From: Symbiodinium sp. CCMP2592
Lineage: Eukaryota; Sar; Dinophyceae; Suessiales; Symbiodiniaceae
Length of the DNA: 64,000 nucleotides
Reading direction: 5' to 3'
Assembly: GCA_905221615.1 (NCBI GenBank)
Contig: CAJNDT010005813.1
Location: forward strand, 476,968-540,967
The notes under the pieces were generated by a model that saw only the letters and a list, made by a program, of their open reading frames with translations, searched no databases and was not told the origin of the DNA. Shown here in pieces: positions 10,394 to 60,063 of the stretch. Position 1 is the first letter of the stretch, and every line of letters starts with the position of its first letter. A program made the position numbers and the translations under genes.

Positions 10394-10421
10394 TCTCTGC
10401 CACGTTACGTTTTGTCACAGC

Positions 10422-33341: not shown

Positions 33342-33905
33342 ATGCCGCCGGCTGATGATGAGAATGGCGGCCGTGAAGTCGGGGCCGTCGGGGACCCTCT
33401 GACGGGTGGCGTGGTGGCACAGCCCAGCAAGGGGCAACCGTGTGCAGAGTGTGGAATCGTCAAGAAGAGGAAGCAGATGCTTGTGTCCGACTCGGACGAA
33501 CATGGGGGCATGAAGATCTGCGTGGATTGCATGGCGGAGCTAAAGTTAAAAGCAGGGGAAGACGTTGACATGGACGAGCTGAAGAAGGAGGCGAGGTGGC
33601 AAGCCCAGTCCGCCAACGCCGGATTGCGCGTGGCAGCGTACCAGGAGGCCATCAAAGCGGTACAAAGGATGAATCTTCCGAGTACGCAAAGGAAGAGGCA
33701 AAAGGCGCTCGTGTTCGCAAGCAGGTTGGCCAAGGCCATCCAGGATGGCAAGCTTTGGGAGGCCTTCAGCCGGGCAAACCAGCGCATGAAAGCAGCGGTG
33801 GCAATTCATGAGAAGATCCAGGAGATGGAGAAGGCCCTCGAGAAGTTGCGCCCGGGCGATGCTCCATATGAACAGGCTCTGAGTGCCTTGATGTTCTTCT
33901 GGTAG
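33342..33905 (+). CDS. Hypothetical Cys4 zinc-finger, coiled-coil protein
   Basis: A 187-residue single-exon frame from ATG at 33342 (MPPADDENGG); the upstream continuation of the frame lacks an ATG. Residues about 33-63 hold CAEC and CVDC separated by about 25 residues, a Cys4 zinc-binding arrangement. The rest is charged and helical: about 70-110 with KKEARWQAQSA and AYQEAIKAVQRM, then EKIQEMEKALEKL, which favours a coiled coil. It ends in ALMFFW and TAG. The family is not recognised. The next gene begins 137 bp downstream on the same strand, after a 90-bp repeat that also occurs at 35146-35237. Confidence 0.6.
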   Translation: MPPADDENGGREVGAVGDPLTGGVVAQPSKGQPCAECGIVKKRKQMLVSDSDEHGGMKICVDCMAELKLKAGEDVDMDELKKEARWQAQSANAGLRVAAYQEAIKAVQRMNLPSTQRKRQKALVFASRLAKAIQDGKLWEAFSRANQRMKAAVAIHEKIQEMEKALEKLRPGDAPYEQALSALMFFW

Positions 33906-33930
33906 AATTTAAATTCAATAATTTTTTAAT

Positions 33931-34020
33931 TTACTTGACTCTTAAAAGTTTCTAGAACTATAATAATAATGGAAGCTCAAAGTATAACTTTTAGGAGGGG
34001 TTCAGAAGTCAGCCAATTTG
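33931..34020 (+). repeat. ~90-bp dispersed repeat, copy 1
   Basis: Similar to 35146-35237. The shared right end is AACTTTTAGGAGGGGTTCAG followed by AAGTC and GCCAA. Confidence 0.85.
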
Positions 34021-34042
34021 CCAAGGCACCCTGGAGAAGTTG

Positions 34043-34732
34043 ATGGAGGAGGAAGAGCAGGCGTATGACTACCAAGTGTTCAAGGACCACCCTGAGCAGG
34101 ACCGCATGGTCAAGGCAATGGACTATGACGACCGAATGGAAGTGAATGAAGATGGTGAATGGTCCATGGCGCTTTTCTACATGTGCCGTGCCAAGTGTGG
34201 CGACGGCAAGACATGCGGCCTCTACCGGGCAGGGAAGCTTTGGGACAAGCAAGGGTCCCGGTGGTATTGCCGGCAGCACAAACCCAACTGGGAAAAGTAC
34301 TACCCGGACATCCCCTTCCCCGCTGAGTTGGGTTGTGGCGCACGGTTCGTCCCTTGGAAGAGGGGAGAATCTATGGTGCTGGAGGTCAAGAAGAACAAGA
34401 CGGCGTGGTATGAGGGGCTCAACAACATGAGCCCGCAGCAACTTTACGACCTTGTGCCGGTCATTGTCCCGAAGGTCTACGCCATTGAAGGATGCCCGCA
34501 GATTGGGCGCTTCCCTGTTGACGAACACATCAACAAAAAAGAGCCGAAGCTCACTACTGCAGGCTGGTGGCGCCTCGCCCGCTACATCAGCGAGAAGGAC
34601 GGCAACCTAAACACGATCCTGGATCTCTGCGACAAGCACGACCCCGGAGGCAAACGAAGCCAGGCATCGACCACGGGGTCCAGTGCCGCTAGCGGCAGTG
34701 AGCGAGACTCCTCGCCAAACTCCGGAAAGTAG
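34043..34732 (+). CDS. Hypothetical protein with Cys-rich motif; frame ends at a hairpin element
   Basis: A 229-residue frame from ATG at 34043; the frame is open further upstream to 33995, so an upstream exon is possible. Residues about 48-80 carry CRAKCGDGKTC and WYCRQH, a likely zinc-binding cluster. A middle region (QQLYDLVPVIVPKVYAIEG) and WWRLARYISEKDGNL look folded. The tail is Ser-rich and ends SPNSGK. The apparent stop TAG (34730-34732) belongs to GTAGGCTGAG of a hairpin element, so this may be an exon end rather than a true stop. The family is not recognised. Confidence 0.6.
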   Translation: MEEEEQAYDYQVFKDHPEQDRMVKAMDYDDRMEVNEDGEWSMALFYMCRAKCGDGKTCGLYRAGKLWDKQGSRWYCRQHKPNWEKYYPDIPFPAELGCGARFVPWKRGESMVLEVKKNKTAWYEGLNNMSPQQLYDLVPVIVPKVYAIEGCPQIGRFPVDEHINKKEPKLTTAGWWRLARYISEKDGNLNTILDLCDKHDPGGKRSQASTTGSSAASGSERDSSPNSGK

Positions 34733-35330
34733 GCTGAGGGGTTCAGAGCCTCGCTCTTTGCCTCAGCCGAAATCCAAGGAGAGTAAGCTGAGGGGTTCAG
34801 AGCCTCGCTCTTGTCTCAGCCGAAATCCAAGGACAGGAGTATTTCGGCGGAGTTGGCGTTTTTTGCAGGCTGTTTTAAAGCCAGAGTTCTGGAGAGTAGG
34901 CTGAGAGGATCGGAGCCTCGCTCTTGTCTCAGCCCAAATCCATGAACTCTACAAGTCACAGCCTGCCGCTTCGCTTGGCTGTCGAGGCTGCCCACTGTAA
35001 GAGCGAATCATAAAAGCCATCTCAGAGTCCTCCGTAGGATCAGAGCCTCGGCTGCCAACAGCGACTCACAGTAAGAGCAAGAGTTCTGGAGAGTAAGCTG
35101 AAAGGATCGGAGCATCCTTGGCGTTCTTCTGGTTGGCTCTTTAGACTTTAACTGACTTTTAAGGGTTTCTATATGAGCTATAATATATAAGGAGGCTAAA
35201 AGTTTAACTTTTAGGAGGGGTTCAGAAGTCCGCCAAGCCTCGCTCTTGTCTCGGCTTAAATCCATGTGCTTTCTGAGTTCTGGAGATTAGGCGGAGAGGT
35301 TCGGAGCCTCGCTCTTGTCTCGGCCGAAAT
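34729..35330 (+). repeat. Hairpin-element cluster 2
   Basis: Copies start near 34729, 34784, 34896, 35091 (truncated) and 35284, with a 5'-truncated piece at about 35236. The first two have GGCTGAG paired with CTCAGCC, a compensated version of the GGCCGAG/CTCGGCC stem. The interval between them contains the frequent flank AGAGTTCTGGAGA. Confidence 0.9.
35146..35237 (+). repeat. ~90-bp dispersed repeat, copy 2
   Basis: Second copy of the repeat at 33931-34020 (TTTAGGAGGGGTTCAGAAGT, then CCGCCAA). Here it is followed by a truncated hairpin element instead of a gene. Confidence 0.85.
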
Positions 35331-36298: not shown

Positions 36299-39108
36299 AG
36301 GTTACGATTAGGGTTAAGTTAGGGTTTAGGCTTAATACCTACAACTGCCGGGTCTCCGGTGCTTATTAACCCTAAACCCAAAAACTGCCGGTACGGCGCC
36401 TAAACCCTAAAACTGCCGGCACGGCGCCTAAACCCCAAAACTGCCGGTACGGCGCCTAAACCCTAAAACTGCCGGTACGGCGCCTAAACCCTAAACTGCC
36501 GGTACGGCGCCTAAACCCTAAACTGCCGGTACGGCGCCGGTACGGCGCTTAAACCCTAAACTGCCGGTACGGCGCCTAAACCCTAACCCTAAACCCTAAA
36601 ACTGCCGGGTCTCCGGTTAACCCTATAAACCTTAAACTAAACCCTACAACTGCCGGTACATCGCCTAATACTAAACCCTAAACCCTAAACCCCAAAAGTG
36701 CCGGCACGGCGCCTAAACCCTAAAACTGCCGGTACGGCGCCTAAACCCTAAACTGCCGGTACGGCGCTTAAACCCTAAACTGCCGGTACGGCGCCTAAAC
36801 CCTAACCCTAAACCCTAAAACTGCCGAGTCTCCGGTGCATAATCAGCCTTTAACCCTATAAATTTTTAAACCTTAAACTAAACCCTACAACTGCCGGTAC
36901 ATCGCCTAATACTAAACCCTAAACCCTAAACCCCAAAAGTGCCGGTACGGCGCCTAAACCCTAAAACTGCCGGTACGGCGCCTAAACCCTAAACTGCCGG
37001 TACGGCGCTTAAACCCTAAACTGCCGGTACGGCGCCTAAACCCTAACCCTAAACCCTAAAACTGCCGGGTCTCCGGTGCATAATAATAATCAACCTTTAA
37101 CCCTAAACCTGAAACTAAACCCTACAACTGCCGCTACATCGCCTAATACTAAATCTAAACCCTAAACCCCAAAAGTGCCGGTACGGCGCCTAAACCCTAA
37201 AACTGCCGGTACGGCGCCTAAACCCTAAACTGCCGGTACGGCGCCTAAACCCTAAACTGCCGGTACGGCGCCGGTACGGCGCTTAAACCCTAAACTGCCG
37301 GTACGGCGCCTAAACCCTAACCCTAAACCCTAAAACTGCCGGGTCTCCGGTTAACCCTATAAACCTTAAACTAAACCCTACAACTGCCGGTACATCGCCT
37401 AATACTAACCCTAAACCCTAAACCCCAAAAGTGCCGGTACGGCGCCTAAACCCTAAAACTGCCGGTACGGCGCCTAAACCCTAAACTGCCGGTACGGCGC
37501 TTAAACCCTAAAGTGCCGGTACGGCGCCTAAACCCTAACCCTAAACCCTAAAACTGCCGAGTCTCCGGTGCATAATCAGCCTTTAACCCTATAAATTTTT
37601 AAACCTTAAACTAAACCCTACAACTGCCGGTACATCGCCTAATACTAAACCCTAAACCCTAAACCCCAAAAGTGCCGGTACGGCGCCTAAACCCTAAAAC
37701 TGCCGGTACGGCGCCTAAACCCTAAACTGCCGGTACGGCGCTTAAACCCTAAACTGCCGGTACGGCGCCTAAACCCTAACCCTAAACCCTAAAACTGCCG
37801 GGTCTCCGGTGCATAATAATAATCAACCTTTAACCCTAAACCTGAAACTAAACCCTACAACTGCCGGTACATCGCCTAATACTAAATCTAAACCCTAAAC
37901 CCCAAAAGTGCCGGTACGGCGCCTAAACCCTAAAACTGCCGGTACGGCGCCTAAACCCTAAACTGCCGGTACGGCGCCTAAACCCTAAACTGCCGGTACG
38001 GCGCCGGTACGGCGCTTAAACCCTAAACTGCCGGTACGGCGCCTAAACCCTAACCCTAAACCCTAAAACTGCCGGGTCTCCGGTTAACCCTATAAACCTT
38101 AAACTAAACCCTACAACTGCCGGTACATCGCCTAATACTAAACCTTAACCCTAAACCCCAAAAGTGCCGGTACGGCGCCTAAACCCTAAAACTGCCGGTA
38201 CGGCGCCTAAACCCTAAACTGCCGGTACGGCGCTTAAACCCTAAACTGCCGGTACGGCGCCTAAACCCTAACCCTAAACCCTAAAACTGCCGGGTCTCCG
38301 GTGCATAATAATAATCAACCTTTAACCCTAAACCTGAAACTAAACCCTACAACTGCCGGTACATCGCCTAATACTAAACCCTAAACGCCAAAAGTGCCGG
38401 TACGGCGCCTAAACCCTAAAACTGCCGGTACGGCGCCTAAACCCTAAACTGCCGGTACGGCGCTTAAACCCTAAACTGCCGGTACGGCGCTTCAACCCTA
38501 AACCCTAAAACTGCCGGGTGTCGGTGCTTAAACCTTAATACCATAACTCATAAACCTTACAACTACCGTTACATGGCCTAATACTAATCTTAAACCCTAA
38601 CCCTTTTAAACCTTAAAACTGCCGGTACGGCGCCTAAACCCTAAAACTGCCGGCACGGCGCCTAAACCCTAAACTGCCGGTACGGCGCCTAAACCCTAAA
38701 ACTGCCGGTACGGCGCTTAAACCCTAAACTGCCGGTACGGCGCCTAAACCCTAACCCTAAACCCTAAAACTGCCGGGTTTACGGTGCAAGGACCTTTAAC
38801 CTTAAACCTTAAATAAAACCCTACAGCTGCCGGTACATCGCCTAATACTAAACCCTAACCCTAAACCCTAAAAGTGCCGGTACGGCGCCTAAACCCTAAA
38901 ACTGCCGGTACGGCGCCTAAACCCTAAACTGCCGGTACGGCGCCTAAACCCTAAAACTGCCGGTACGGCGCTTAAACCCTAAACTGCCGGTACGGCGCCT
39001 AAACCCTAAAACTGCCGGTACGGCGCCTAAACCCTAAGCCTAAACCCTAAAACTGCCGGGTTTATGGCGCCTAAACCTTAAACTAAACCCCTAAAACTGT
39101 CGGTTGTC
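36299..39108 (+). repeat. Interstitial telomere-motif satellite with higher-order structure
   Basis: About 2.8 kb made of CCTAAACCCTAAA heptamer blocks alternating with CTGCCGGTACGGCG. The marker CTACAACTGCC occurs at 36643, 36885, 37122, 37378, 37618, 37855, 38111 and 38347, giving spacings of 242, 237, 256, 240, 237, 256 and 236 bp. This is a three-part higher-order unit of about 734 bp. The left edge (about 36304-36332) carries the opposite-strand motif TTAGGGTTTAGG. Confidence 0.95.
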
Positions 39109-43320: not shown

Positions 43321-46300
43321 ATGACAAGCTCGGCGCTGGCAGCAGTGGTGGAGTTGTCTGATGACGATATTGCAGGACCCACTTCAAGAGATAGGGCTGT
43401 CCATTCAGAAGGCAGGAGGCATGATGCTTCATGTGTTTCGTTGGCAGCAGTGGCGGAATTGTCTGGTGCTGATGTTGATGACACTGGGCCCAGTTCACGA
43501 GACAAGCCAATGCTGCCGGTGGCTGAAGGCACATCATCCGGCAAACGGAAGCGTCCAGCGGCGAATTATCACGCCGTTCGCAGGCAGGTGCTTTCTCTGA
43601 TGAACAAGAGATGCTACTGCTCAAGGAAAAACAAGACTCGGTCTTCCTGCTTGGAGCAGTTCCGGGGGCAAGCGGACGCATTGGTTGAGTTGCAGCTGCG
43701 CTTACGTGCTCTCGGCAAGCACGACATGGACAAGGAGGCCATTCAAATTTAATTTCATATTCATTCCCCAGCTAGCAGGACCGTGACTCTGACTCCGCGT
43801 GTCTTGCTGCAAGCTTTTTAATTGCAACAGGGTTGATTTGGAATGTGCTGCTGCACGGCATTCGACGTTATTATTGTGCCTTGTCCCTGTCCTGTGAATA
43901 GTAACAGTGCAGTTGCTGAATAGGCTTTTTTCCTTCCTGAACGGGTCCGACCGAGTCCGTGATAATGCTCGTTGTGCAGGTCGTGAATATGATCACTTCC
44001 TGCCGCAAGAGAAACACCACGGAGGACCGCACCACATTCAGCCAGTCCATCCTGGACACTCCTGTATGCCAGGATGCTTTCGGGCGACTGCTGTTTATCG
44101 GAAAGGAACGAATGCAGAAACTTTGGAAAGCTGTGAGATCGGGCGTCCCTCCACCCAGGGATGGACGCTTCTTGAAGCAAACTCGTCAGTACCGGAAGAT
44201 GCAAGGATCCACGGAGAAACAGCAGGCGGTGGTCGAGTTCTTGACGGAAATGCATGCCACTGTGGCTGAGTACATGCCCGAGGCAAACCGTGCCCGGGAC
44301 ACCGCCAGCCCGGTTCCCAAGACGACTGAGTCTCAGAATGGCAATGACACTGTGCCAATTGGTCTGCGTTTTCGAAAAAGGACAGGCAAGCGTCCTCGGA
44401 AATCCGTGTCTATGAATTTTGGCAAGGACACGACAGCATTGAAAATGCTGCCACCTGGCACATTCACAGGATACTTGGCTCTGCTCAACGCCCGCAGAGA
44501 AGGCAAAGACAAGATCAGCCTGAAGATGTTCAACGAAGCAGCTTGGCAGTGGACTGACAGGCAATCCGCTTTAAATCACTACTATGCATTAGTTACGTCA
44601 TCCTGAATCATAGTCTAACTTAGCCTTATGACCACGGCACACCTGCACCTTCAACTCATGTTGGAGTTTATCCTTTGTCATAGGTTTGGGCCGAGTCCTT
44701 TGGCACCCGCCTGGCCATCCGACCTGTCAGCCGACACGCGCTTTGCTCTGTGTGTCTACGGCACAAGCTCATCATTCGAAAATGTGGTGCAGACGAGGTG
44801 GCGAGGGACATCCAATGCCGTCAGTACGAGCAGCACTTGAAACTGCAGTACAAGGACCGTACTTGCTACTGGGAAAAGAGGGGCCTCGCCAGGCTGAGAT
44901 CCTTGCAAGGCAATGGACTGTATCCATTGAGCCTCATAATGGACGGTGCAGACCACAGCAAGTTCGCCTGCCCAAGATCAGGAGTCTTCTCCGGAAAAGA
45001 CTTCTCCTCTTTGCACCGACCGACCATGGACCTGGTTGGATGTCTGCTGCACGGGCAGTCAGCCTGCCTGGCGTTGAGCCACCCGCGCCTGGCGAAGGAT
45101 TCGTCCTACTCGACGGAGCTCCTCTATCACATGCTCCACCGCGTTTCCAGCCGCGTGGATCTTCGTCAAGCTGAGCTCTTCCTTCAAGCTGATAACACGA
45201 CTCGCGAAGTGAAGAACAATACTCTTCTGAGAGCAATCAGCTTGCTTGTGGCATGCCATCGGCTGGCACGGGGGCAGCTCAGCTGCCTTATGTCTGGTCA
45301 CAGTCACGAGGACATCGACCAGCTGTTCGCATCAATGAACACATTCATCGAGCGACACAGCGACATCCCCACGCCGTCAGCCTTCAAGGAAGTCTTGGGG
45401 GAGTTTTTTTGGCCGCAGCAAGCTGGAGAGTAGGCTGAGAGGTTCGGAGCCTCGCTCTTGTCTCGGCCGAAATCCACGGATTGATTCTGACACGCGCTGC
45501 CTGCCATGTGTGCTAGCCAGCAAGTAGGCTGAGAGGTTCAGAGCCTCGCTCTTGGTCTCGGCCGAATTTGCTGGCTAGCAAGACTCATTGGAAACTAGGC
45601 AGAGAGGATCAGAGCCTCGCTCTTGTCTCTGTTCAGGTTCCTGCGCCCGGAGACTTGCCGGCCGAACGAGCCAGACCGAGAGGTGTTTGAAGTTCACTCT
45701 GTCCGAGATTGGCTCCCTGTGTGCACTGAATCAGTTCTTATTTACTTGTTAATTTCAAGTCTATTTGTGAATGCCAATGCTTTAATGTTTTTGCCAAAGA
45801 TCTGCGTAGATTTGAATTCATGGTCCTACGGTAACATTTCGTGCTCCACTTGAACTGACGTTCGTGCAAAGGAAAATGAAACTGCAGCTAGCTTGCTGCT
45901 ACAGTCACCTCGGTGGAATAGCTGGGCCCGGCGCACCACACGTGTTCGCATTTGATCGCATTGGCACGCTGCGTTTTTTGGACCGCAGCAAGATGTGAAG
46001 TGTTCTTGGTGACGGGACCAGACACAAACATTGTTCAAAGCAGCATTAAATTATCATTGGTCTGACTGAGGCATTGATCGTGCCGACGTGGACTGCCGCT
46101 ACTGGAACAAATTGGGATATGGAACGAAGATCCCGCACCACGATTCTGATGTGGTTCTCAGGTGGGATTCAGGGAGGGGAGCCTGCTCGGCTGTCATTGC
46201 CAGTTGGAAGTAGAAGTGGACATTGAGTGCCCGTCGTGATGTTGCCTGCAGGACCAAGCAGAACATGTCGGACGAGCGTTGGGGCAGACCAATCCTGCAT

Positions 46301-46434
46301 TTGCCGTATGCGGTGGCTCAAGTGGCAGCTGCTGAAGGAGCACCTAGAGGCCAGGCTACTGAGGTTCTGTTAGAAGTTGAACTGCAAGTCCAGCTTTGTC
46401 TTTCTCCCCGCATGTCATCCCCAATTTAAGTTGA
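43321..46434 (+). CDS. DUF7869-like (transposase-like, RNase H-fold candidate) protein, seven-exon model
   Basis: Exon 1 (43321-43737) and exon 2 (43980-44560) carry the N-terminal region (YHAVRRQVLSLMNKRCYCS; ILDTPVCQDAFGRLLFIG). A 170-bp GC-AG intron precedes exon 3 (44731-45429), with HALCSVCLRHKLIIRKCG and the core signatures LIMDGADHSKF (Asp at 44942), LFLQADNTTREVKNN (Asp at 45191) and GHSHEDIDQLF, typical of DUF7869-type proteins as I recall them. Intron 45430-45636 is GT-AG and consists of three hairpin elements. Exon 4 (45637-45720) reads FLRPETCRPNEPDREVFEV then VRDW; exon 5 (45905 to about 45990) GGIAGPGAPHVF; exon 6 (about 46080-46161) ends DSDVVLR; exon 7 (46252-46434) starts TKQNMSDERWGRP. 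The boundary between exons 5 and 6 and the true start are uncertain. The gene lies inside an intron of the methyltransferase, same strand. Confidence 0.65.
45430..45636 (+). repeat. Intron built of three hairpin elements
   Basis: Copies at about 45430-45477, 45523-45567 and 45594-45636. The intron starts with GTAGGCTGAGAGG of the first copy and ends TCTCTGTTCAG at the right arm of the third. The third stem is GGCAGAGA with TCTCTGTT, again base-paired through changes. The second copy has an extended stem: GCTAGCCAGCAA to its left and TTGCTGGCTAGC to its right. Confidence 0.85.
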
Positions 46435-46589
46435 GCGCGGCAGTTCTTTGCAGCGACCGGGCCAACGACGAGAAAAGCAACCAGAACTGGCTGAAGATGG
46501 CATCAATTCTGCGTTTCTCAGCTGCGTTCACACACGGACCAACTCATCATGAATGAGAGCGACCGCAGCCAGGCAGCGAGCCCTACCAT

Positions 46590-46778
46590 ATGACGGATGC
46601 TGCGGGATTTCTCACCAACCTTGCCGAAAGGACGGACGTTCGGTCCCCGCCACTGCCAGTGAGCCAGGCTCTTGCAACCCCTGGGCCGTCTGTGGGTCGT
46701 GGCCCTGCTGGACGGCCGCCCACGCCGGAGGTCGTTTTCCGCCCCGTGCCCGGGCTCTATGCCACGCTTTCTTTTTGA
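46590..46778 (+). CDS. Possible exon, unknown product
   Basis: An ATG-started frame of 62 codons (AGFLTNLAERTDVRSP, then a Pro-rich tail). It may be a later exon of the DUF7869-like gene or unrelated. No domain is seen. Confidence 0.2.
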   Translation: MTDAAGFLTNLAERTDVRSPPLPVSQALATPGPSVGRGPAGRPPTPEVVFRPVPGLYATLSF

Positions 46779-46824
46779 AGCAGTAAATACTAACCATCCA
46801 ATGTCAATGTGAGATTGGCTACGC

Positions 46825-47010
46825 ATGAATGCATCCTCAGCTCAGGATCCAAACATACTTCTTTTGCGGCAGGAGTTACCCAACAAAAAGCATTTGCAGA
46901 GATATCGGCAAAGTTCGGCCAAACAGAGTATGTATGCAGCAGCCGCAAAGATGTGGGCGGCGGGTGTCCCATGGCCTCAGGCACTTTCAAAGTTTCACAT
47001 TGTCTTGTGA
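46825..47010 (+). CDS. Small hypothetical protein or exon (AxxMWxxGVPWPQAL motif)
   Basis: A 61-codon frame from ATG at 46825. The stretch SMYAAAAKMWAAGVPWPQAL resembles a helical motif I associate with recurrent dinoflagellate hypothetical proteins (recall only). It is complete as a short ORF, but an exon of a larger gene is equally possible. It lies inside the large methyltransferase intron. Confidence 0.35.
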   Translation: MNASSAQDPNILLLRQELPNKKHLQRYRQSSAKQSMYAAAAKMWAAGVPWPQALSKFHIVL

Positions 47011-47171
47011 GAATGACAGGGTATTGCAGCAATTTGAAATAAACTTACGGTGTGATGTGTGTAACATGGCATGATTAAGCATGACATACATCATTCATTG
47101 TGCAGGCTTTGCACATCATGAAGGAGGCCTTCGCGGCTGTGGACTGTTGACGGGGAGCCAGAATTTTGGAG

Positions 47172-47357
47172 AGTAGCCTGAGAGGATCGGAGCCTCGCTC
47201 TTGTCTCGGCCGAAACAGGAGATTCTGATTCTGCGCGAAAGCAGGCGGAGAGGATTGGAGCCTCGCTTTTGTTTCGGCCGAAATCCATGGAATCTGGCGC
47301 GAAAGTAGGCTGAGAGGTTCAGAGCCTCGCTCTTGTCTCAGCCGAAATCCAAGGAAG
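47172..47357 (+). repeat. Hairpin-element cluster 4 (three copies)
   Basis: Copies start near 47174, 47240 and 47306. The third has a compensated GGCTGAGA/TCTCAGCC stem. The second has TTTCGGCC in place of TCTCGGCC. Confidence 0.9.
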
Positions 47358-47478
47358 CAGAATCTTTGTCCACGCAAGAACAACAAGTTTGTCTCCATGC
47401 TCTGGCTTTGGGCAGCTCCATGCCGATGAATGAACTCAAAATAATTCAACATATGATTGTTACCTGGTTTTATTTTTC

Positions 47479-47489
47479 TTTGGCTCAAG
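47479..47489 (+). other. Possible relict spliced-leader 3' end
   Basis: TTTGGCTCAAG matches the 3' end of the dinoflagellate spliced leader (known ending TTTTGGCTCAAG) and sits 46 bp before the ATG of the 47535 frame. Only 11 bases match, so chance is possible. Confidence 0.3.
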
Positions 47490-47534
47490 ATGCACTTTGA
47501 CAAGTTGATCCTTATTATATAGGCCCAAGCCTGC

Positions 47535-48032
47535 ATGGCGGCTGTTAGCATCCTCCCGCTAGCAAGGCACTGTCCTTTGAGCATGGCTCACAAGCCAGGC
47601 CTGCTGGGGAAATCGTCGAGCAAGTTCAACAAGATGACACGTGCCTGGCGCGAGGTGCCAGCAGCCTCGGGGTACAATAAGATCAATGTCAAGCCAACTA
47701 CTACGTCAAGCCATCCACCTCAGCTCCAAGGTGGGAAAAAAGAGATGGCTTCGCCAGGGGTCAGCGAGAAGCACATCCCTTTCACAGGGGTCACCCAGAA
47801 TCAGATCCGGAAGCGCAGCAAAGCCTGCCAAGATCTCCTTCAGCAGACACGGGAAGAGGTGGAATGCCTTGACCTAAAGCCGGTGGTCCGTTGCGAGCTC
47901 ATTGAGCTGGCTGAAAGTTATTTGCCTGACCCGGCTAGTAATGTTCCCAAGGTGCTTTGGGAGGATAATTTCTACTGTGCCAAGGAACGGATCCGAAGGC
48001 TCAGGGAGAGCCAGGTCTGGAGCGTAGGCTGA
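47535..48032 (+). CDS. Hypothetical protein; frame ends in a hairpin element
   Basis: A 165-residue frame from ATG at 47535. Its Lys/Ser-rich N-terminal half (KSSSKFNKMTRAWREVP) is followed by a helical C-terminal half (QIRKRSKACQDLLQQTREEV, then LKPVVRCELIELAESYL). The family is not recognised. The frame runs into a hairpin element (GTAGGCTGAG at 48022) and stops at its TGA (48030-48032). By analogy with the 45430 intron, the coding exon probably ends near 48021 and continues elsewhere. A possible relict spliced leader lies just upstream, which would fit a retroposed transcript. It is located within the large methyltransferase intron. Confidence 0.5.
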   Translation: MAAVSILPLARHCPLSMAHKPGLLGKSSSKFNKMTRAWREVPAASGYNKINVKPTTTSSHPPQLQGGKKEMASPGVSEKHIPFTGVTQNQIRKRSKACQDLLQQTREEVECLDLKPVVRCELIELAESYLPDPASNVPKVLWEDNFYCAKERIRRLRESQVWSVG

Positions 48033-48070
48033 GAGGTTCGGAGCCTCGCTCTTGTCTCGGCCGAAATCCA
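48022..48070 (+). repeat. Hairpin element at the end of the 47535 frame
   Basis: GTAGGCTGAGAGGTTCGG, then CTCTTGTCTCGGCC and GAAATCCACGGATTGATAC. The same 3' flank (CCACGGATTGAT) follows the copy at 45430, so flank and hairpin are copied together. Confidence 0.9.
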
Positions 48071-48213
48071 CGGATTGATACTGAGACGCGCAGCTTGCCC
48101 TGTTTGCTAGCCAGAGTGACATGCGATGGAAGCGTGCACGAAAAAAGATATGAAGTTATTAAGAGTTCAAATGAACCTCACATGGACTTGCTGCTGTTCC
48201 CGTGTGGGCTCAG

Positions 48214-48899
48214 GTTGTTCTTCTGCGTGCTCGAGAACGTCGGTAATCTTCGTTGCGGCAAGCTCCGGCATGTGATGGAATATGTGACTCATGACAGGGT
48301 TTCTGCCCGTGGTTTCGGTTCCCATATTATTTATTATTATGCGAGGCTAAGCATGAGGAAAAACGTCGTCAGAGTCAGTCCCTGGCAGGAGTGTGCAAAA
48401 CGAGACCTTTCGCTGCGCTGGGCAACAGTGACTGGGAAAATGGTGGGTGTCAGTGTATCTCGGTCGCAATTAATTTGTCGTTTTATGTCTAGACTCGGAC
48501 GCAGTTTGCAGCATGAATGTTCAGGTCTGGCGTGAAAGAGTTTTTCTGCTGTGCTGCAAGCGTGGCAGAGAGCAAGAGTTGTTCCAGGTGCATGCTGCAG
48601 TCGACATTGATTTCTTATTATTTCTCATTGCTTAGCAGGTAATGTATGGTAACCGTGCTGCAAAGTTTCATTGACTGACCGCCTGTCTCGATCAGTTTTA
48701 CGACTTCCTCGATTGCGACACCACGCACCAAAGGGCAGCTAAGCCGTGGAACACCAAAGGAAAAATACCACTGCACCGCTGGATGCAGAAGAAATGCAGC
48801 GCAGAAGATCTGTTGCGACTGCGAGCTTGTGGCAACATCGTCATACCTCGTTGTGGCGAGCTAGCGCTGAATGCCCTGGGGCACAGCTATGTCCTTTGA
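48214..48899 (+). CDS. C5-cytosine DNA methyltransferase, C-terminal exons (motifs VI-X)
   Basis: Exon 48214-48298 reads LFFCVLENVGNL and LRHVMEYVTHDR, where ENV is motif VI. A 90-bp GT-AG intron leads to 48389-48448 (ECAKRDLSLRWATVTGKMVG). A 76-bp GT-AG intron leads to 48525-48587 (VWRERVFLLCCKRGREQ, motif VIII). A 108-bp GT-AG intron leads to the last exon 48696-48899 (KPWNTKGKIPLHRWM, then GNIVIPRCGELALNALG, motif X), stop TGA 48897-48899. Frames are consistent through all junctions. Joined to 42347-42831, the model gives 242 residues with motifs I, IV, VI, VIII and X in order. The join at the 5.4-kb gap keeps phase (AG plus G), but its donor side (CAGTCC) is not a normal splice site. Confidence 0.75.
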
Positions 48900-49049
48900 G
48901 CTCATTGTGGCATGATGCTCCTTTCCCAGGCAGGCCGGGGCTTTACAGATACTCTGCAAAGAGACACTCGACAGCGAAGCTGAATGTGCTTTAGATCTTG
49001 AAATAAGAGTGAGTGCTACCTAGCTCTGGAAAAATATGAGTCTCAACGC
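48900..49049. other. Short spacer
   Basis: Nothing recognised between the methyltransferase stop and the minisatellite. Confidence 0.4.
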
Positions 49050-50960
49050 TATATTTTGTGACACAGGAGCTATGTTTTGTGACTCAGGAGCTATTTTTTG
49101 TGACACAGGAGCTAAATTTTGTGACACAGGAGCTATGTTTTGTGACACAGGAGCTATGTTTTGTGACACAGGAGCTATATTTTGTGACACAGGGCTATGT
49201 TTTGTGACACAGGGCTATGTTTTGTGACACAGGAGCTTATTTTGTGACACGGACGGACTCCTCACGTCACAAAATCGCAGGCCAAGCCGGGGCCAAGGAG
49301 GTGAGAAGACCTATAAATTGTGACACAGGAACTATATTTTGTGACACAGGAGCTATGTTTTGTGACACAGGAGCTATGTTTTGTGACACGGGACCTATAT
49401 TTTGTGACACAGGGCTATGTTTTGTGACACAGGAGCTTATTTTGTGACACAGACGGACTCCTCGCGTCACAAAATCGCAGGCCAGGCCGGGGCCAGGGCA
49501 GAGGGTCAGGGCCAGGGCCAGGAGCAATATTTTGTGACACAGGAGATATGTTTTGTGACACAGGACTATGTTTTGTGACACAGGGCTATGTTTTGTGACA
49601 CAGGAGCTTATTTTGTGACACGGACGGACTCCTCACGTCACAAAATATTGCACGCCAGGCCGGGGTCAGGAGGTCCTAGGAGCTATGTTTTGTGACACGG
49701 ACGGACTCGTCCCGTCACAAAATCGCAGGCCGGGGTCTGGAGGTTGCCGGTCGGCCCAGCTCAATCCGCATGCTTCGTTTTGATATGTGTGTTGTTTATA
49801 CGGAGGGGGGCCCGGCATCACGAAAAGCATGCTTCCAGCATGGCCAAACCCAAGAACGGGGGGGTCAGCGCCCCGTTCTTGAGTTTGGCCATGCTGGAAG
49901 CATGCTTTTCGTGATGCCGGACCCCCCTCCGTATAAACAACACACATATCAAAACGAAGCATGCGGATTGAGACACAGACAGGCTTCGCAAACTGCTCCC
50001 GCTGAGCTGGGCCGACCGGCAACCTCCAGACCCCGGCCTGCGATTTTGTGACGGGACGAGTCCGTCCGTGTCACAAAACATAGCTCCTAGGACCTCCTGA
50101 CCCCGGCCTGGCGTGCAATATTTTGTGACGTGAGGAGTCCGTCCGTGTCACAAAATAAGCTCCTGTGTCACAAAACATAGCCCTGTGTCACAAAACATAG
50201 TTCCTGTGTCACAAAACATATCTCCTGTGTCACAAAATATAGCTCCTATGACCTCCTGACCCCGGCTTGGCCTGCGATTTTGTGACGTGAGGAGTCCGTC
50301 CGTGTCACAAAATAAGCTCCTGTGTCACAAAACATAGCCCTGTGTCACAAAATATAGCTCCTGTGTCACAAAATATAGCTCCTGTGTCACAAAATATAGC
50401 TCCTATGACCTCCTGACCCCGGCTTGGCCTGCGATTTTGTGACGTGAGGAGTCCGTCCGTGTCACAAAATAAGCTCCTGTGTCACAAAACCTAGCCCTGT
50501 GTCACAAAATATAGCTCCTGTGTCACAAAATATAGCTCCTGTGTCACAAAACATAGCTCCTATGACCTCCTGACCCCGGCTTGGCCTGCGATTTTGTGAC
50601 GTGAGGAGTCCGTCCGTGTCACAAAATAAGCTCCTGTGTCACAAAACCTAGCCCTGTGTCACAAAATATAGCTCCTGTGTCACAAAATATAGCTCCTGTG
50701 TCACAAAACATAGCTCCTGTGTCACAAAACATAGCTCCTGTGTCACAAAATAAGCTCCTGTGTCACAAAACATAGCCCTGTGTCACAAAATAAGCTCCTG
50801 TGTCACAAAACATAGCCCTCACAGAAAACAAGCTCCTGTGTCAGATAAATATAGCTCCCGTGTCACAAAATATACTTCCTGTGTGACAATATATAGTCAT
50901 AGCTCTTATGTCACTGTATCATAGCTCCTGCATCACCAATCAAATAGTCTTAGCTCCAGT
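49050..50960. repeat. 21-bp GTGACACAGGAGCTA minisatellite, both orientations
   Basis: Left half (49050-49690): units of TATTTTGTGACACAGGAGC. Right half (50050-50960): the same unit reversed (GCTCCTGTGTCACAAAATA). Longer spacers containing GACGGACTCCTCACGTCAC and GGCCGGGGTC recur in both halves, giving a higher-order pattern. The short frames it creates encode repetitive CDTGAMF peptides and are not genes. Confidence 0.95.
49525..50240. repeat. Large near-perfect palindrome (foldback), axis near 49866
   Basis: Left arm GGCCAAAC (49842-49849) pairs with GTTTGGCC (49883-49890); the innermost stem is AAGAACGGGG/CCCCGTTCTT with a loop of about 10 bases. The arms pair outward through CATGCTTTTCGTGATGCCGG, the CATATCAAAACGAAGCATGC stretch and the minisatellite. 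The right arm has about 31 extra bases near 49975-50008, and there are single-base differences. Confidence 0.9.
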
Positions 50961-51684: not shown

Positions 51685-51689
51685 GTTAG
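51685..51689. repeat. Target-site duplication GTTAG (left)
   Basis: GTTAG immediately before the 5' LTR matches GTTAG at 60252-60256 immediately after the 3' LTR. Confidence 0.9.
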
Positions 51690-51869
51690 TGCAAAACTTT
51701 GCACACCTTGTATATGTACTCGTACAGTATGTACACGTATTTTCCATTTGTTTTCCTGGCCGGTATTTACATGTGCATTTGTTTTACTTGAAGAGCTCCC
51801 TAATTCGTTTGAGCCCAATGTGCTGACTTCGCTACTCCGCAGGCGCTTGTGTTTGAGTGAAAATTAGCA
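51690..51869 (+). repeat. 5' LTR (180 bp)
   Basis: Starts TGCAAAACTTTGCACACC, ends GAGTGAAAATTAGCA. Identical to 60072-60251 by eye. It contains TATATGTACTCGTACAGTAT, which could host transcription signals. Confidence 0.95.
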
Positions 51870-51881
51870 TGGTAGCGGAGC
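51870..51881 (+). other. Primer-binding site (initiator tRNA-Met-like)
   Basis: TGGTAGCGGAGC directly follows the LTR. It matches the common Copia site TGGTATCAGAGC (complement of the initiator tRNA-Met 3' end) at 10 of 12 positions. Confidence 0.75.
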
Positions 51882-52075
51882 GCTTACCGGTTCATTCCTT
51901 TGGGTCTGGCCGACAAGCGTCTCCTGGGAGCCGAAACCTCACTCCCTTGCTACACGTAGCACAACGAGCAACATACACGTGCAGCCTTCGGGGTTCTTTG
52001 GAAGGGCCCAGGCTTTTCAAACTTGGAGTTTGTTTCTTCGGTGAAAGTAGCGCCTCTCGTCCTTAGCTTGCAGTG

Positions 52076-53743
52076 ATGGCTGCATTGCCCGCGGCACAAG
52101 CTGTGCCAGATGATGACGATGACGACCTTGGGGGTCCAGTGCTCCCTCCTTTGCAGCCGATACTTGAGACTGTGTCTGGCAATCCTTGGCCCGCTGCTGG
52201 CAGTCCTGTCTCGAGCGATCAGGTGACCGCGTTGTTGCATCAGCTGGGCAACACAACAGCTCTCCTGGGTCAGGTGATAGGGCAGCGCAGTGCCAGTGAT
52301 TCTTCGGTGTCGGGACTTACAGGCAAAGACATGTCTCGCATCATGCCCCGTCCAGAGCCCTTCCGTGCTGCAACGAGGGAACAAGAGCATTCTGCTTGGC
52401 CTTCATGGCTTTGGTCTCTTGAGCAGTATTTGACTGTCTTAGACCCCAAGTTCGGAGAAGAGATCGATCAGCTGAAATCAAACTTGCACCGGCAGGTGAA
52501 CATTTCTCCCGCAGCCACAGACATCGTCGCGCGCTCGCGGCAGCTCTTCGCTTTGCTTTCGGTGTTGGTAAAGGGACGTGGGTTTCTTGTGATCAAGTCG
52601 GTCTCTGGGAACTGTGGGTATGAAGCCCTTCGGCAGCTCATTTCCTTGTATGCACCGCAGAGCAAGTCACGCAGCCTTGGCATCTTGACGGCCCTGACAC
52701 AGGTCAGTGCTTTTAAATCTGGCGAGGCAATGTTTCCACAGATTCTTGAGCTTGAACGGGTTTTTACAGAGTACGAGAGCGCTTCGCAACAGCTTCTTCA
52801 GGAGGAGCTCAAGACGGCGCTCCTTTTGCGTTGTTTGCCCGCTGCTTCGAGAAATCAGGTTCATGCCACCCTTCCAGAGGATGCTTCGTATGCTGCAGTG
52901 AGGGACTGTGTCTTGCGCATCGAAAGGCAGCAGTTCAAGTGGCAAGGCGTTTCATACTTTGGTGATGTTGCGCAGGGTTCAGGTGCAGGGACTGGCGATG
53001 GTGCCACTCCTATGGAAATCGACCGTGTTGCCGGCAAAGGCAAGAAGGGCAAAGGCAAAACGAAAGGCAAGGACAGCAAGGGCAAAGGAAAGCATGGCAA
53101 GGACAACAAAGGCAAGGGTCATCATGGCAAGGACAAAGGTCAGTCCAAAGGCAAGCAAGGTGACAAGCCTGCAGCTGATAAGTGCTTGTACTGTAACAAA
53201 TCTGGCCACTGGAAGCGCGATTGCAGGAAGTACAAGGCCGATTTGAAGGCAGGCAAGGTGCAGGCTGTGTCCGAGGAGTCGGGATCTACCGTCTCGACGG
53301 TGACTCCGTCTCAGAGTGCCTCTCAGGTTGGTGCAAAGGGTCGGGTTGCTAGGCTTGCGGAGATAGACCTTACAGCTTTTGATGAGTGTGATGAGGAGTT
53401 TCTTGATGGAGACACCCGCGTTTGCATGATCCAGTGCAGCATGGAACGAGTTGAGCACTTTTCGATCAGTGACCCCTCTGAGGTTCGTTGCAACGCTTGG
53501 GATACGATCTGTGAGTACGAGCTTTTGAGCCTCCCGAGTGATGTGCTCTTGAAGCTGTGTGAAGCCAAGCAGCTGGAGTGCCATGCGGATCATTCCAAAT
53601 CCCTTGCAGATCCTTCAAGTGCCATGCAGATCATTCCAGATCCCGTGCAGATTCCTTCAAGTGCCCTGCAGATCAGTCCAGATCCCTGGCAGATTCCGTC
53701 AAGTGCCCCGTGCATCAGGTCAGTTGTGATGCCGATCAGGTAA
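52076..53743 (+). CDS. gag: Gag-like protein of the Copia element
   Basis: A 555-residue frame from ATG at 52076 (MAALPAAQAV); GTG at 52073 is in frame but not a likely start. The first 320 residues are a helical Gag domain (PSWLWSLEQYLTVLDPKFGE). A Lys/Gly-rich linker (KGKKGKGKTKGKDSKGKGK) follows from about residue 318, then one CCHC zinc knuckle CLYCNKSGHWKRDC (370-383). It packages element RNA. The last 40 residues carry short repeats (IPDPVQIPSSALQISPDPWQ), where the pol frame overlaps in the -1 frame from 53542. The stop is TAA 53741-53743. Confidence 0.9.
   Translation: MAALPAAQAVPDDDDDDLGGPVLPPLQPILETVSGNPWPAAGSPVSSDQVTALLHQLGNTTALLGQVIGQRSASDSSVSGLTGKDMSRIMPRPEPFRAATREQEHSAWPSWLWSLEQYLTVLDPKFGEEIDQLKSNLHRQVNISPAATDIVARSRQLFALLSVLVKGRGFLVIKSVSGNCGYEALRQLISLYAPQSKSRSLGILTALTQVSAFKSGEAMFPQILELERVFTEYESASQQLLQEELKTALLLRCLPAASRNQVHATLPEDASYAAVRDCVLRIERQQFKWQGVSYFGDVAQGSGAGTGDGATPMEIDRVAGKGKKGKGKTKGKDSKGKGKHGKDNKGKGHHGKDKGQSKGKQGDKPAADKCLYCNKSGHWKRDCRKYKADLKAGKVQAVSEESGSTVSTVTPSQSASQVGAKGRVARLAEIDLTAFDECDEEFLDGDTRVCMIQCSMERVEHFSISDPSEVRCNAWDTICEYELLSLPSDVLLKLCEAKQLECHADHSKSLADPSSAMQIIPDPVQIPSSALQISPDPWQIPSSAPCIRSVVMPIR
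53542..53740 (+). promoter_or_regulatory. gag/pol overlap, putative -1 frameshift region
   Basis: The pol frame opens after a TGA at 53539-53541 and gag closes at 53741. No canonical X XXY YYZ slippery heptamer was found in gag frame. The overlap is made of 24-36-bp repeats (CAGATC.TTCCAGATCCC words) that could fold. Confidence 0.5.
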
Positions 53744-56700
53744 CGCCTCTCAAGCCGTCTGTGTATGTGCATGGCAGTGTCCGTGCTCTTGCTAGTGTCA
53801 ACGGTGAAGACATCATCCTGGACTCAGGAGCGGATATCAGTGCACTCCCTGAGACGTACGCCCAGGTTGGTGAGCCTGCTCCATCGTCGGCTCAGAGGTT
53901 CGTCGATGCTTCAGGCCGTTTGCTGCAGTCCAAAGGCATACGCATTGCAGAGGTTCGTGTTGGTTCCATCAGGTTCCGTGAAAAGTTCTTGATCGGAGGA
54001 GTTACTTGCCCTCTCCTTTCTTTGGGCAAATTGTACAAGGCAGGATTTTACGTAATCCCCTCCACTTCAGGTGACAGTGACTTCATCCTCACCAACGGTG
54101 ATCTGTCCGAACCGGTCAGGTTGAAGAGGCAATCTCTATGCGCAACGGGCAGTGTGCGTGTCCTCAACGCTCTACCTTCAGCAGTGCGGGCGGTGAGTGC
54201 AGCATTGCATGGTCCTTTGCTCCGTCTTGACGCGTCAGGGTGGCAAAGGATAGGTTCCAGACGCTATGCGCTTCTAAGTTTTGGTCAGTCTTATGTCGAC
54301 AGCACGCTGATTCCCTTGACTGAGTTGCTTTGGTATCGCACCACACTTGTGCGCAGAGATGGCCGGTGGACTGTTGCTGAGTTGGCAGCCGATGTGAGCT
54401 CTTTGACGGATCGTACGTTGCCGCTTGGGCCCCCGGCTGTCGAACAGGTTATCACCATTGCGTATGACGATGCCTCCCTAAGTCCTGAGAGCCTAGGGTT
54501 TAGTCCTTCTGATTCCGATGACGTGCCAGGTTCCCAAGGTGCAGGTTCTGTTGAGGCTCCAGAGGTTCCAGTGCCAAATGCCGCCGATCAAGGTCCAGAG
54601 GTTCCAGTGCCAAATGCCGCCGATCAAGGTCCAGAGGTTCCAATGCCGGATGCCGCCGATCAAGGTGCAGGTGTAGGCGGACTTGAAGGTGATAGCGATC
54701 TCCCTCCGAGTGCTGATCAAGCGGCTCCAGTCGCTCCTGCGGCTGATGGAGGTGGAGAGGCAGCTCCATCTGAACGTGAAGTCATTGACAGCGTCACTGT
54801 GAACGGTGTTGTGATTGACCGCAACTCTTCGCTTCGGGTCATGCGTGCTGCCCTTGTCAGCCTTGGCTTAGGTAAGAATGGGTCTAAGAGCCAGTGTTGG
54901 GAGCGCTTGGTGCGCCATCTGCGTGAGGCCGATCTTTTGCGTGAGCATCAGGTCCATCACAACTTGAGCGCCGAGCTGAGTCGGCCACCACATGCACCAC
55001 CAGTTCCTGCAGCTCCTTCGGACCACGACCGTGCACAGCATGTGCTGACACATGAACCGTACCAGCCCTGGTGCGATGCTTGTGTCAAGTTTCGAGGAAG
55101 ACAGGATCGCCACCCGTCTGAGGCTTCGCATGATCCTGGCTCTCGGTCTGTCCTGTCTTTTGACTTTGGATACTGCTCGAGGGAAGCCGATGACGGTGTT
55201 CGAGAAGCCAAGGACCGCCTGACAGTCTTGTTTCTTCATGATCGTCACACCAAAGCCGTGCATGCCATTCCCACGGCTCAGAAGGGCGGCAGCAGCCTCA
55301 GTCACTTGGTTACAGAATCCGCGAGGTTTGCGATATGGTTGGGTCACCGGTCCCTCAGACTCCGATGTGATAATGAACCCGCTATCCTTGCGGTGCAAGC
55401 CGGTCTCTTGAAGGCCCTTCGGAATCTTGGTGTTGACGTGTCCAAGGACACCGCTCCTGTGGAGTCTCACCAGAGCAATGGTCCGGTTGAGCAGGTTGTT
55501 GGGAGCATCAGGCAGCATGCCGCTGTGCTGATGCATGATCTCGAGCAAGCTTGTGGAGCCAAGGACGATCAAGTGTTGTTTCCACCGCTGCATCCGATCT
55601 ACGGATGGGCTCTTGCCCATGCCTGCTGGCTTCGCAACCGTTACACGCCTGTGCATGGCACTACTCCGTACGAGGCTGTGACTGATTCGGCGTACAGCGG
55701 CACCATCTGTCGCTTTGGAGAAAAGGTCCTGGGATACCTCAAACCTGACGGCAAATCCTCGGCGCGCTGGCGCCATGGCCTCTGGCTTGGAAAAGCTATA
55801 GGCAATGACACCCACATTTTGGGTTTGGTCGGTGGCGTCTTCGTGACGCGCTCAGTGCGAAGGTTTGAAGACAATTTCGATCCGGACTTTGCAGCCAGCT
55901 TTGATGTGAGTGTTTTCGAGCACGGGCTCTCGTCCATAGGGGGGAAACTTGTACTTGGGCACAAGAAGCCAGCCGCTCCTGTTGCAATGCCTATCCCAGC
56001 TTACGTTGGCCCTCCTCCTTCACCACCAGCCGCTGCAGAATCGCCTCTTCCTCACGAGGCTCAAGGCTCTCCTTCACAGATTGCAGGCACCGACTCGCCA
56101 GTGCGGTCTCCAACATCCATCAACTATAGCCCTTCTGATGGCATGAGTGCCACGGAGGATGCTGCTCTTTCTGATCGTCACGGTGATGTGTTGTCCACTG
56201 ACGCAGGTGAACCCAGCTCAGCCGAGGCGGGGATGCCCGCAATTCCTGCCGAGGCGGGGGCAGCTGCCTCATCCGCTCCTCTGATTTCTGAGGCTCTGGG
56301 CCTCAGTGAGAATCCTCGACCAGCCAAGGTCGCCCGCAGGTCTGATGATGACCAAGTGATGGCTCTTGAAGGGCAGATTTCTTTGATTACCGCCCCTGGG
56401 TGCTGTGCGGATGAAGTGCCAGCTGGAGATTTGCTTGTAACCTCTGGAGAGGAGTCTCCCTGCGTTGTGCACATCAGGCAAGTGTGCTATGAACATGAGG
56501 ATGAAAATGTCACTTTGACGTTTGATGGTGACACGCTTGATGAGCTCGAGGATTACGACCAAAGTTTTCTTGAGGATCAGTCTGGTGACACTGAGTTGCT
56601 GCCTGAGCTGTGTCGGCCCCGCACTTCAGACATTGAGCCAGAGCTCTCTCCGGAGGAGCTCGAAGCTTTGGATGTGATTGCTGATGGAGTTGAGATTGCT

Positions 56701-59190
56701 AGGCTAGAGGGCATGACTGTGCTGCTTCCTGAGTCAGCAGCTCATAACGATGAGTACGCAGGTCAAGAGGCCACTCACCTCACCACGCGCATGGTGCGCA
56801 CGTGGCGTGAGAAGGAGCTTGGTGGCTCCCCAGTTTGGTACCGACGCAGCCGGTACGTGGCCCGAGAGTATGCGTGGCTCAATGAGCGTCATGACCTCTT
56901 TTCGCCCGCTTCCACAGCACTTTCGAACCGCTTGCTGCCGATCCACTACCTGTGTCACGAGCCTGACCCTGATGATCCTTGGGTCATGGTCGCCCTCGAC
57001 ATCAGTGATGCTTACCTTAGCGTCAAGCAGACCCGCCTGGTCATTGTGCAACATGCAGGTGTCCGCTACGTGCTGGGACGAGTCTTGCCCGGACAGCGGG
57101 ACGGATCCAAGGAGTGGTACTTGGCATTTTCCAGTTTTCTTGATGAAGCCTTGGGTTTTAAGAAGTGTGATGCTCTGCCCTCGTTGATTCGCGAGCCAGC
57201 TTTCAAGTTCAGTATGCAGATGCATGTCGATGACTTGTTGGGTGCAGGCAGCAAGCGCTTTCTTCTTGAGCGCCTCCGGCCCACGCTTGAATCAAAGTAT
57301 TGTGTAAGCATCCGCATCCTTGAAGCTTCGGGGGACACGATTTCGTTCTTGAAGAGGCATCACACACTTCTTGCTGACGGTAAAATGCTGCTAACACCCT
57401 CGGCCAAGCATTTTGAAAAGCTGTTTTCTGTGATGAAAATCGATGAACGGAGTGCCCCGAAGAAGACTCCTTATGCGCCGCAGCTTGATGAAATAGACAA
57501 CAGCGAGCTTCTCACGTGTGCAGATGCAAAGGCTTTCCGCTGTGCCATTGGCATTCTTTTGTACTTGGCAGTGGATTTGATCGAGTGTCAGGGTGCCATC
57601 CGTGCGTTGAGCAGCTACATGACTTCGCCAACACGCAATGCACAGGCTGCTTTGAGGCATCTGTTGAAGTATCTTCTTGAAGGCCAACACCATGGTCTCT
57701 TGCTTGATCGCAGAAACTGTTACAACGGAGTTTCCGGCGAGATTCCGAGACCGAGCCAGCCGATCTTGTGCTTAGAAGCCTTTTCGGACGCCAACTGGGC
57801 GGCGCATCGCGGCTCTCGCAAATCGGTTAGCTCAGGGATGGTGTTCGTAGCAGGTTGCCTTTTGTACAGCTCTAGCCGGACACAAAGGGTGATAGCTTTG
57901 AGCTCAGGGGAATCGGAATTGCTTGCGGCGACGTCTACACTTTGTGACGCTTTGTTTGTTCGGCAGCTGCTCGCTTTCATTGCTGACGATGAGCCACCCC
58001 AGATTCATCACTTCCTCGATGCCAGCGCTGCCAAAGGCATCATGGAGCGAAGCGGCGTCGGCCGCGTCAGGCACTTGAGCGTCCGAGTCTTGTGGACTCA
58101 GCAGCTTGTTGCAGATAAGATCATCATGCTTCGCAAAGTTGCAACATCGATCAATGTGGCCGACCTGAACACCAAAGGCCTTTCTCGGAGCCGCATGCTC
58201 ATGCTTTTGCACATCATCGGTTGCTGGCATACTGTGTATGAGTGCTTTGTTGGAGAAGATGAGATTGCTGATCTGCGCTACAAGCAGGCAATGAAGGACG
58301 CTGTGCGTGCCGTCCGCTCCACATCGAGTGCGTCCGTGAGCAAGCCTATGATTCAGGCCATTGTCATCGCTGTTGTGAGCGCCTTGAGTCGTGCTGCGGA
58401 TGATGCTGACGGTGACAACGGCTTGGATGACTCAGGAGCTGACCTTCCTGACTGGGCCAACCGGGTCCTTGTGTGGTTCTTGGGACTGTGGGTCCGCGAT
58501 GACACTGGTGTGTCTGTCATCGACATGCTTGTGCAGCCCCATGCTTTGATCCTTGCGTGCGTGACAATGCTGATGCTTGTGTTGTGCATCCGCACTTTGT
58601 GCTGCAGGGCATCTGATCGCGGCCAGGTCAATGTGCAGATCGCTGGCCCTCGTGATCATGTTTCCTTTCAGTTTGATCGCCAGCTCAATTTGCATGTTGG
58701 AGTTGGTGCGCCTGGGACCCCTACGAATCCTTTGTCTTTCGACTTTGACGGTGATGACAGCCCTCCACATGTTTTGTCCGCGCTACGCAAAGGTGCAAGG
58801 TCCAAAGCTTCTACCAGACCAGGTCCGAGGTACGACGATGAGGATGCTCCTCATCCCGACGCGAGTTCGTCAGCAGCACCGCCCACTGGTGCGATGAATG
58901 CAGTGCAGGCTCATGTGCCTCCTGCTGACCATGCATCAGCACCTGGAACACCAGCAGAATCCATGAGTTCGCAGCTTTCGACGCAGTCGTTCCGCGAGCT
59001 GCACGGGTACCCTATCGCTGTGGCACGGAGGATGAACCACCGTGGGAGCCTCGTGTGGGTGTCGCACACAGGCCACTGCTACCATCGTCTCCGGTGCTTT
59101 AAGCTTGATGGGTGCGATCGTGTGAAGGCGTACGAGCGCCACGAAGCACAGAACCGCGGACTCCGTGCATGCAAGAAATGCAATCCTTGA
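53542..59190 (+). CDS. pol: Copia Pol polyprotein with C-terminal membrane and zinc-like extension
   Basis: Open from 53542 and overlapping gag by about 200 nt in the -1 frame; no ATG at its start, so it is probably expressed by frameshifting. Numbered from 53578 it has 1870 residues: protease DSGAD (Asp82); a Pro/Ala repeat EVPVPNAADQGP x3 (about 328-363); a SAP-like segment (about 417-449); integrase with zinc-type WCDAC and catalytic Asp529, Asp598 and Glu638; reverse transcriptase ALDISDAY (Asp1141) and HVDDLL (Asp1218-1219); RNase H FSDANW (Asp1404) and SSGESE. After RNase H come about 330 more residues with a hydrophobic, membrane-like helix (about 1655-1675) and a tail with YHRLRC (1835-1840) and CKKCNP (1865-1870). 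No internal stop; all key catalytic residues are present. Confidence 0.95.
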
Positions 59191-60063
59191 GTGACGGTGC
59201 ATGATGTGTGTGCAAAGCCTCTCTTGATGGCCACTTGAAATGCTCTTGATGCGATGCTTTCTTGGTGTCAACACTCGGCGTGTTGATACCATGGGGCATC
59301 TTGTATATATCCACCTGTATTATAGCTTGGATGCTCATGTTGCTGGGTCCTGGACCCTTCTGTCAACTTCAGGTGCCGATGATCTTGAGCATATACTTGT
59401 ATGGCTTTCTTGAATGTGCATATGGTGCATTTTGCACCATCAATACTTGTGACGCATGCCATTTTGGCAAACCCGAGAATATGTGCACTTTGAGTGCACT
59501 GCTGACACTTGCAATGGCGATGATGCATTCCGCCAATGCTGGACCTTAATTAGGAGGTTCTAATACTTTTAGTCGTTGGTTGTAGGCTTCCTTCGGCTGT
59601 TTTGCGTACAGGGCAGACACTTTCTTGATTATCAACTTGTGTTTGCATGATCCCGCATGAATCGCGCTTTCCTCACACTTTTTGCGTCCTGCTGCAAGTC
59701 AGGTTTTCTTCACTTCTGTTGAGCGCTGCCAGTTTGTTGCTTCACGACCGCGGGTCCGCTTGCCTGAGTCAAGCTTGCAACAACAGGAGCACACTGCTAC
59801 GGCGAGTGTGTTTCTGTTTCCGTAGGCAGCTGGTGCCACTGCACCCGTAGGGTAGCAGGTAGCTGTAGCCAGTTCAAGCCAAAGACCTTTCGGCAGTGCT
59901 TGTGAGCAGAGGTGCACGTTCGTGGGAGCAGTAACCACTAGTTACTTTGTTGTCGTATTCGTCATACCGGCCCTAGCGTAGCTTTGAGCTTTCGTACAGT
60001 GTGGCTTTGGAAGTCGCAAAGTTATGTGAAAGCATTGGCCTTAGTTGGACTTCGGCATGCTTT
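59191..60063. other. 3' untranslated part of the retrotransposon
   Basis: About 870 bp between the pol stop and the purine tract. Short frames but no domain. It contains TATGGTGCATTTTGCACCAT at 59422-59441, a perfect 20-bp inverted repeat. Confidence 0.5.

Follow-up and report, generated by a model that had tools for sequence, protein, structure and literature searches.

A putative derived intron composed largely of hairpin repeats in a DUF7869 gene of Symbiodinium

The DUF7869 gene and its insert

The window analysed here, a 64-kb stretch of DNA from Symbiodinium sp. CCMP2592 (listed as an S. tridacnidorum strain in the excerpt of PMC11114475), contains a gene with a DUF7869 domain (Pfam PF25273, 3.9e-24, on 44684-45430) whose coding sequence runs into a group of hairpins. 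In agreement with the initial annotation, we found the exon open to ...PQQAGE ahead of the hairpins, three hairpin copies (at 45433, 45527 and 45598), a TTCAG that ends at 45636, and a joined frame that reads FLRPETCRPNEPDREV...VRDW past this putative acceptor. The annotation had also taken GGIAGPGAPHVF as the continuation of the VRDW frame, but this segment lies in another frame with stops between, and a further intron is therefore needed. The features discussed below are as follows.

44684..45402, + strand: DUF7869 exon, from VWAESF... to VLG plus the first two bases of a GAG codon
45403..45636, + strand: putative gained intron of 234 nt, GTTTTTTTGG...CTGTTCAG, proposed from the top in-frame join and homolog spacing
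45403..45429, + strand: probable intron start ahead of GTAGGC, 27 nt, taken as exon by the initial annotation
45423..45520, + strand: 98-nt element, CTGGAGAG...GCTAGCCAG, containing hairpin 1 (45424-45476)
45511..45580, + strand: hairpin 2, with extended outer arms and a core stem
45595..45636, + strand: hairpin 3, core stem 45598-45605 with 45626-45633, then directly the candidate acceptor CAG
45637..45712, + strand: next exon as far as VRDW, reading G + FLRPETCRPNEPDREVFEVHSVRDW, placed by the joined frame and the homolog profile
48017..48114, + strand: the 98-nt element again, in a dispersed copy adjoining another ORF

The start of the first exon agrees with the public protein P0001, likewise from Symbiodinium sp. 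CCMP2592 (KMFNE joined to VWAES), and its end was placed at 45402 by the homolog profile. P0001 was reported as 100% identical to the host-gene protein with 90% of the query covered; because one S/W difference separates the two, it is probably another gene copy. It ends ...PQQAGE, at the TAG of the first hairpin. Beyond the insert, the following exon retains the family pattern RPNEPDREV..VRDW. No relatives of the exon were found in a search of viral and prokaryote contigs.

The fold of the entire insert, 45403-45636, has a z of -3.34. Hairpin 2 folds at -46.5 kcal/mol (z -6.85), with a predicted 15-bp outer helix, an 8-bp core helix and a small internal loop, and its outer arms are complementary at 13 of 13 positions in the inverted-repeat listing. 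Hairpins 1 and 3 are unremarkable on their own, with z of -1.62 and -1.14, and 14 and 31 of 200 shuffles, respectively, folding as well. An A-T pair replaces a C-G pair in the stem of hairpin 3, so that pairing is kept, and the right edge of this hairpin is not sharp, because imperfect pairing can extend to 45641, five bases into the exon. Between 45395 and 45645 we detected four pairs of inverted repeats, none linking the two ends of the insert. The 98-nt element that carries hairpin 1 is 93% identical, without gaps, to 48017-48114, and the match stops at both element ends. Its termini are CTGG and CCAG, and CAGCAAG on both flanks (45416-45422 and 45518-45524, recognised by eye and absent from the repeat-family listing) suggests a nested insertion. 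The 20-mer 45403-45422 is nearly repeated in the same gene at 45973-45992, with two differences (2 matches compared with 0.05 expected, for a pattern written post hoc from both places); judging from its placement past the GGIAG exon, the second occurrence may lie in another intron.

Hairpin copies across the window

The motif GTAGGCYGAGAGG, at up to two mismatches, has 38 matches in the window, whereas 100 shuffles averaged 2.59, which rules out a chance origin. A two-part pattern found 30 hairpins between 31.8 and 64 kb, 29 on the + strand and one on the - strand (31 rows, of which 60367 was dropped as a duplicate of 60388), and some of the copies form tandem series that repeat every 64, 70 or 107 bases. 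None of the 30 could be placed in another proven intron. The only minus-strand hairpin, at 36294, adjoins a 2.7-kb array (36371-39037) in which telomere-like CCTAAACCCTAAA units are mixed with CTGCCGGTACGGCG. Long ORFs at 31820, 34732 and 45433 all end in the TAG of the first hairpin of a cluster, in the same frame (GGA RAG TAG), an ending that could reflect genuine stops, introns or coincidence. A search of viral and prokaryote contigs gave no exact copy of the hairpin pattern, and no open-licence paper contained two of its three 9-10-mers. Rfam matches on 45300-48600 were too weak to be accepted, namely mir-3926 at 45509-45582 (27.4 bits versus a gathering threshold of 82) and sR28 (15.5 bits versus 39).

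We aligned 29 hairpin copies, leaving out hairpin 40030 with its displaced right arm, the broken or divergent copies 31951, 32198, 32306, 32374 and 35096, and the half copies 35235, 39781 and 60459. Eleven cells were changed on both sides, compared with 0 of 500 shuffles. Six of these 11 double changes fall on column pair 14-44, where there is CpG on both arms, three of the four T-A copies (34732, 34786, 34899) lie next to one another, two copies have an unpaired G-G, and the only double transversions holding up are those of 45598 and 36294. CpG decay on both arms could mimic some of the double changes, and the hairpin copies are also related. With over half of the double changes at this one CpG column pair and the copies related, covariation is weak as proof of RNA function.

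Several other repeats lie in the window. An LTR retrotransposon at 51690-60251 is a very recent insertion: its 180-bp ends (51690-51869 and 60072-60251) are identical, it has GTTAG on each side (51685-51689 and 60252-60256), and its insertion point is the beginning of a hairpin copy (60256). Two similar stretches, 33883-34025 and 35117-35237, have CTTGG/CCAAG-like ends, with boundaries drawn by eye; the latter interrupts a hairpin copy, and the former could represent an introner-like intron of a different type, the relative P0066 reading PYEQVLQNLERLM across the site. A protein search with the ORF at 33995-34729 returned one partial match, again P0066, which is uninformative on the hairpin. 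Three copies of a 354-aa ORF, the first encoding a protein kinase domain, are arranged in tandem at 7632-17384, with units of about 4.1 and 4.6 kb, and at 49048-50896 the 21-bp repeat GCTATGTTTTGTGACACAGGA forms two arrays in opposite orientation.

Position of the splice sites

An open joined frame alone can misplace a donor. The initial annotation had proposed that the first hairpin brings its own donor, GTAGGC at 45430, and had pointed to relatives lacking the element as a check. Sixty-five homologs were aligned with the joined protein, and the 59 that have GHxHED were counted, the six without it being excluded. The exon is uninterrupted across the site in 48 of the 59, and because these homologs run straight through, we take the exon to be normally continuous and the insert to be derived. 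Four further homologs with a variant motif (P0038, P0047, P0062, P0064) span the site by eye. Of the other seven outside the count, P0001 stops at the TAG, and in P0011, P0015, P0020, P0032, P0063 and P0065 the sequence ends or diverges close to the site or ahead of it; homologs with an intron at the site would appear truncated and may thus be undercounted. After VRDW the 48 spanning homologs have 47 distinct continuations, counting an empty one, as expected for unspliced ORFs, presumably genomic in origin, that enter the next intron.

The distance from GHSHED to VRDW in these 48 homologs is 53 (n = 6), 54 (n = 29) or 55 (n = 13). In the gene studied here it is 63 with the donor at 45430 and 54 with a donor 27 bases upstream, at 45403, which gives ...KEVLGEFLRPETCRPNEP...; read as exon, 45403..45429 would add nine residues, FFWPQQAGE, and none of the spanning homologs has an addition of such length. 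We also scored joins with a profile of the 48 homolog segments, using G(T/C/A) donors at 45370-45444 and AG acceptors at 45500-45679. Again, 45403-45636 (GT-AG) came first of the 47 in-frame joins, with 89.7 bits, followed by a join with 83.8, while 45430-45636 received 77.3, which is 12.4 bits below. Two further GT-AG joins, 45376/45606 and 45376/45612, restore a distance of 53-55 with lower scores (73.1 and 75.9). Judged by these alignments, the donor is probably ordinary sequence upstream of the first hairpin, at 45403, and if anything it is the third hairpin, rather than the first, that contributes a splice site, at its acceptor end. Restoration of length is weak evidence by itself, because shuffled inserts and other joins restore 53-55 too: some GT-AG join did so in 376 of 500 shuffled inserts, and 20 of 300 contained a join scoring at least as well. 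Provided that the intron is spliced, the homolog profile decides which donor is the right one; as evidence for splicing itself it is weaker.

The copy of the 98-nt element at 48017 favours neither a donor like 45403 nor one of the GTAGGC type. A homolog search with the ORF beside it gave no matches, and removing GT 48015 to AG 48114 leaves the frame open, but the same place allows 21 further in-frame G(T/C/A)-AG joins, two of them with GT donors (48015/48085 and 48024/48085).

An intron of 45430-45636, with the GTAGGC of the hairpin as donor and an mRNA that keeps the nine extra codons, would likewise be GT-AG with an open frame, and one of the 21 joins at the 48017 copy (48024/48085) starts at GTAGGC too. 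GTAGGC is also closer to the general donor consensus than the GT at 45403. Excerpts of published work describe codon-adding introners in Aureococcus. Nevertheless, the spacing of 63 and the lower score, together with a GT retained at this position in 21 of the 30 hairpin copies and a site that is paired from its fourth base onward in the predicted fold, make the hairpin donor very unlikely. Other boundaries, such as GC 45422 with AG 45652, would not be foreign to the Symbiodiniaceae, for which the excerpt of PMC11453091 gives 25-74% GC/GA-AG boundaries, and this join has the second-best profile score; it is, however, 5.9 bits lower and loses the family-like FLRPE beside the site, and we regard such boundaries as highly improbable. 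There might also be no splicing, the insert having broken this gene copy so that the protein ends at the TAG of the first hairpin. We consider this unlikely, since exact GT-AG excision gives both the native length and the best score and RPNEPDREV..VRDW is still present downstream; it is nonetheless a serious rival, because excision by chance is not rare in shuffled inserts, and because P0001 stops at this TAG, as do the ORFs at 31820 and 34732.

Intron gain and known introners

The source of new introns is still unsettled, and dinoflagellates rank with the groups in which they arise most actively; Roy et al. 2023, cited in PMC11453091, is probably the main paper on dinoflagellate introners. 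At the present locus the insert is missing in 48 homologs, its GT-AG excision restores the family length and its hairpins belong to a repeat family; splicing, the target duplication and the order of insertions are inferred. The reading that we prefer, with a probability of roughly 0.6, is that 45403-45636 is a derived spliceosomal intron in a once continuous DUF7869 exon, with its GT from the target and its acceptor from the insert. The earlier proposal of an introner-like intron would stand as to a derived GT-AG intron made largely of hairpin copies, but not as to a donor taken from the hairpin.

In the mechanism that we propose, an insertion into the continuous exon of this Symbiodinium gene would have created the putative intron. 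The GT of the 5' splice site would derive from target sequence, as GTT occurs at 45403 and again at 45637, consistent with a target duplication; against this, the direct repeat is no longer than GTT, the following base being T in one case and C in the other. A precise insertion at GTT would imply an empty site reading ...GGGGAGTTCCTG.... The 3' splice site would close the insert, immediately past the right arm of the third hairpin (CCTCGCTCTTGTCTCTGTTCAG), which is usable as a tract because it is pyrimidine-rich and the acceptor CAG follows the core without a gap. The 98-nt dispersed element with the first hairpin probably came later, as a nested insertion. It is distinctly unlikely that the hairpin represents an undescribed introner family, in which the right arm gives the pyrimidine tract and acceptor, selection keeps the stem paired and arrays of several hairpins form introns. 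With its many intron-free relatives, the locus offers a clean case for telling the splice site that an insert supplies from the one that it takes over from its surroundings.

MITEs are short, non-coding elements present in several copies. The 98-nt element is likewise short, non-coding and multi-copy and has CTGG...CCAG ends, but these ends are only 4 bp, and the search for a transposase or source element covered the window only.

Introners in Symbiodiniaceae have already been published (PMC9860276, PMC10522408), and the excerpt of PMC10522408 reports that 3.2-6.3% of genes carry introner elements in the Symbiodiniaceae covered there. By their description in the excerpt of Gozashti et al. (2022; PMC9860276), the introners of Symbiodinium microadriaticum, of the same genus, resemble 45403-45636 in being derived introns in which the insert ends with the 3' splice site and the GT comes from a short direct target repeat. 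They have, however, clear 4-bp duplications, whereas only GTT is repeated here and the fourth base differs (T versus C), and they have terminal inverted repeats, of which there are none between the ends of our insert. The introner elements of Amoebophrya, also a dinoflagellate, are defined among non-canonical introns and have two intron ends that pair, as described in the excerpt of Farhat et al. (2021; PMC7789003), whereas the putative intron here is GT-AG and contains three separate hairpins; the two share short direct repeats and inverted repeats that form hairpins.
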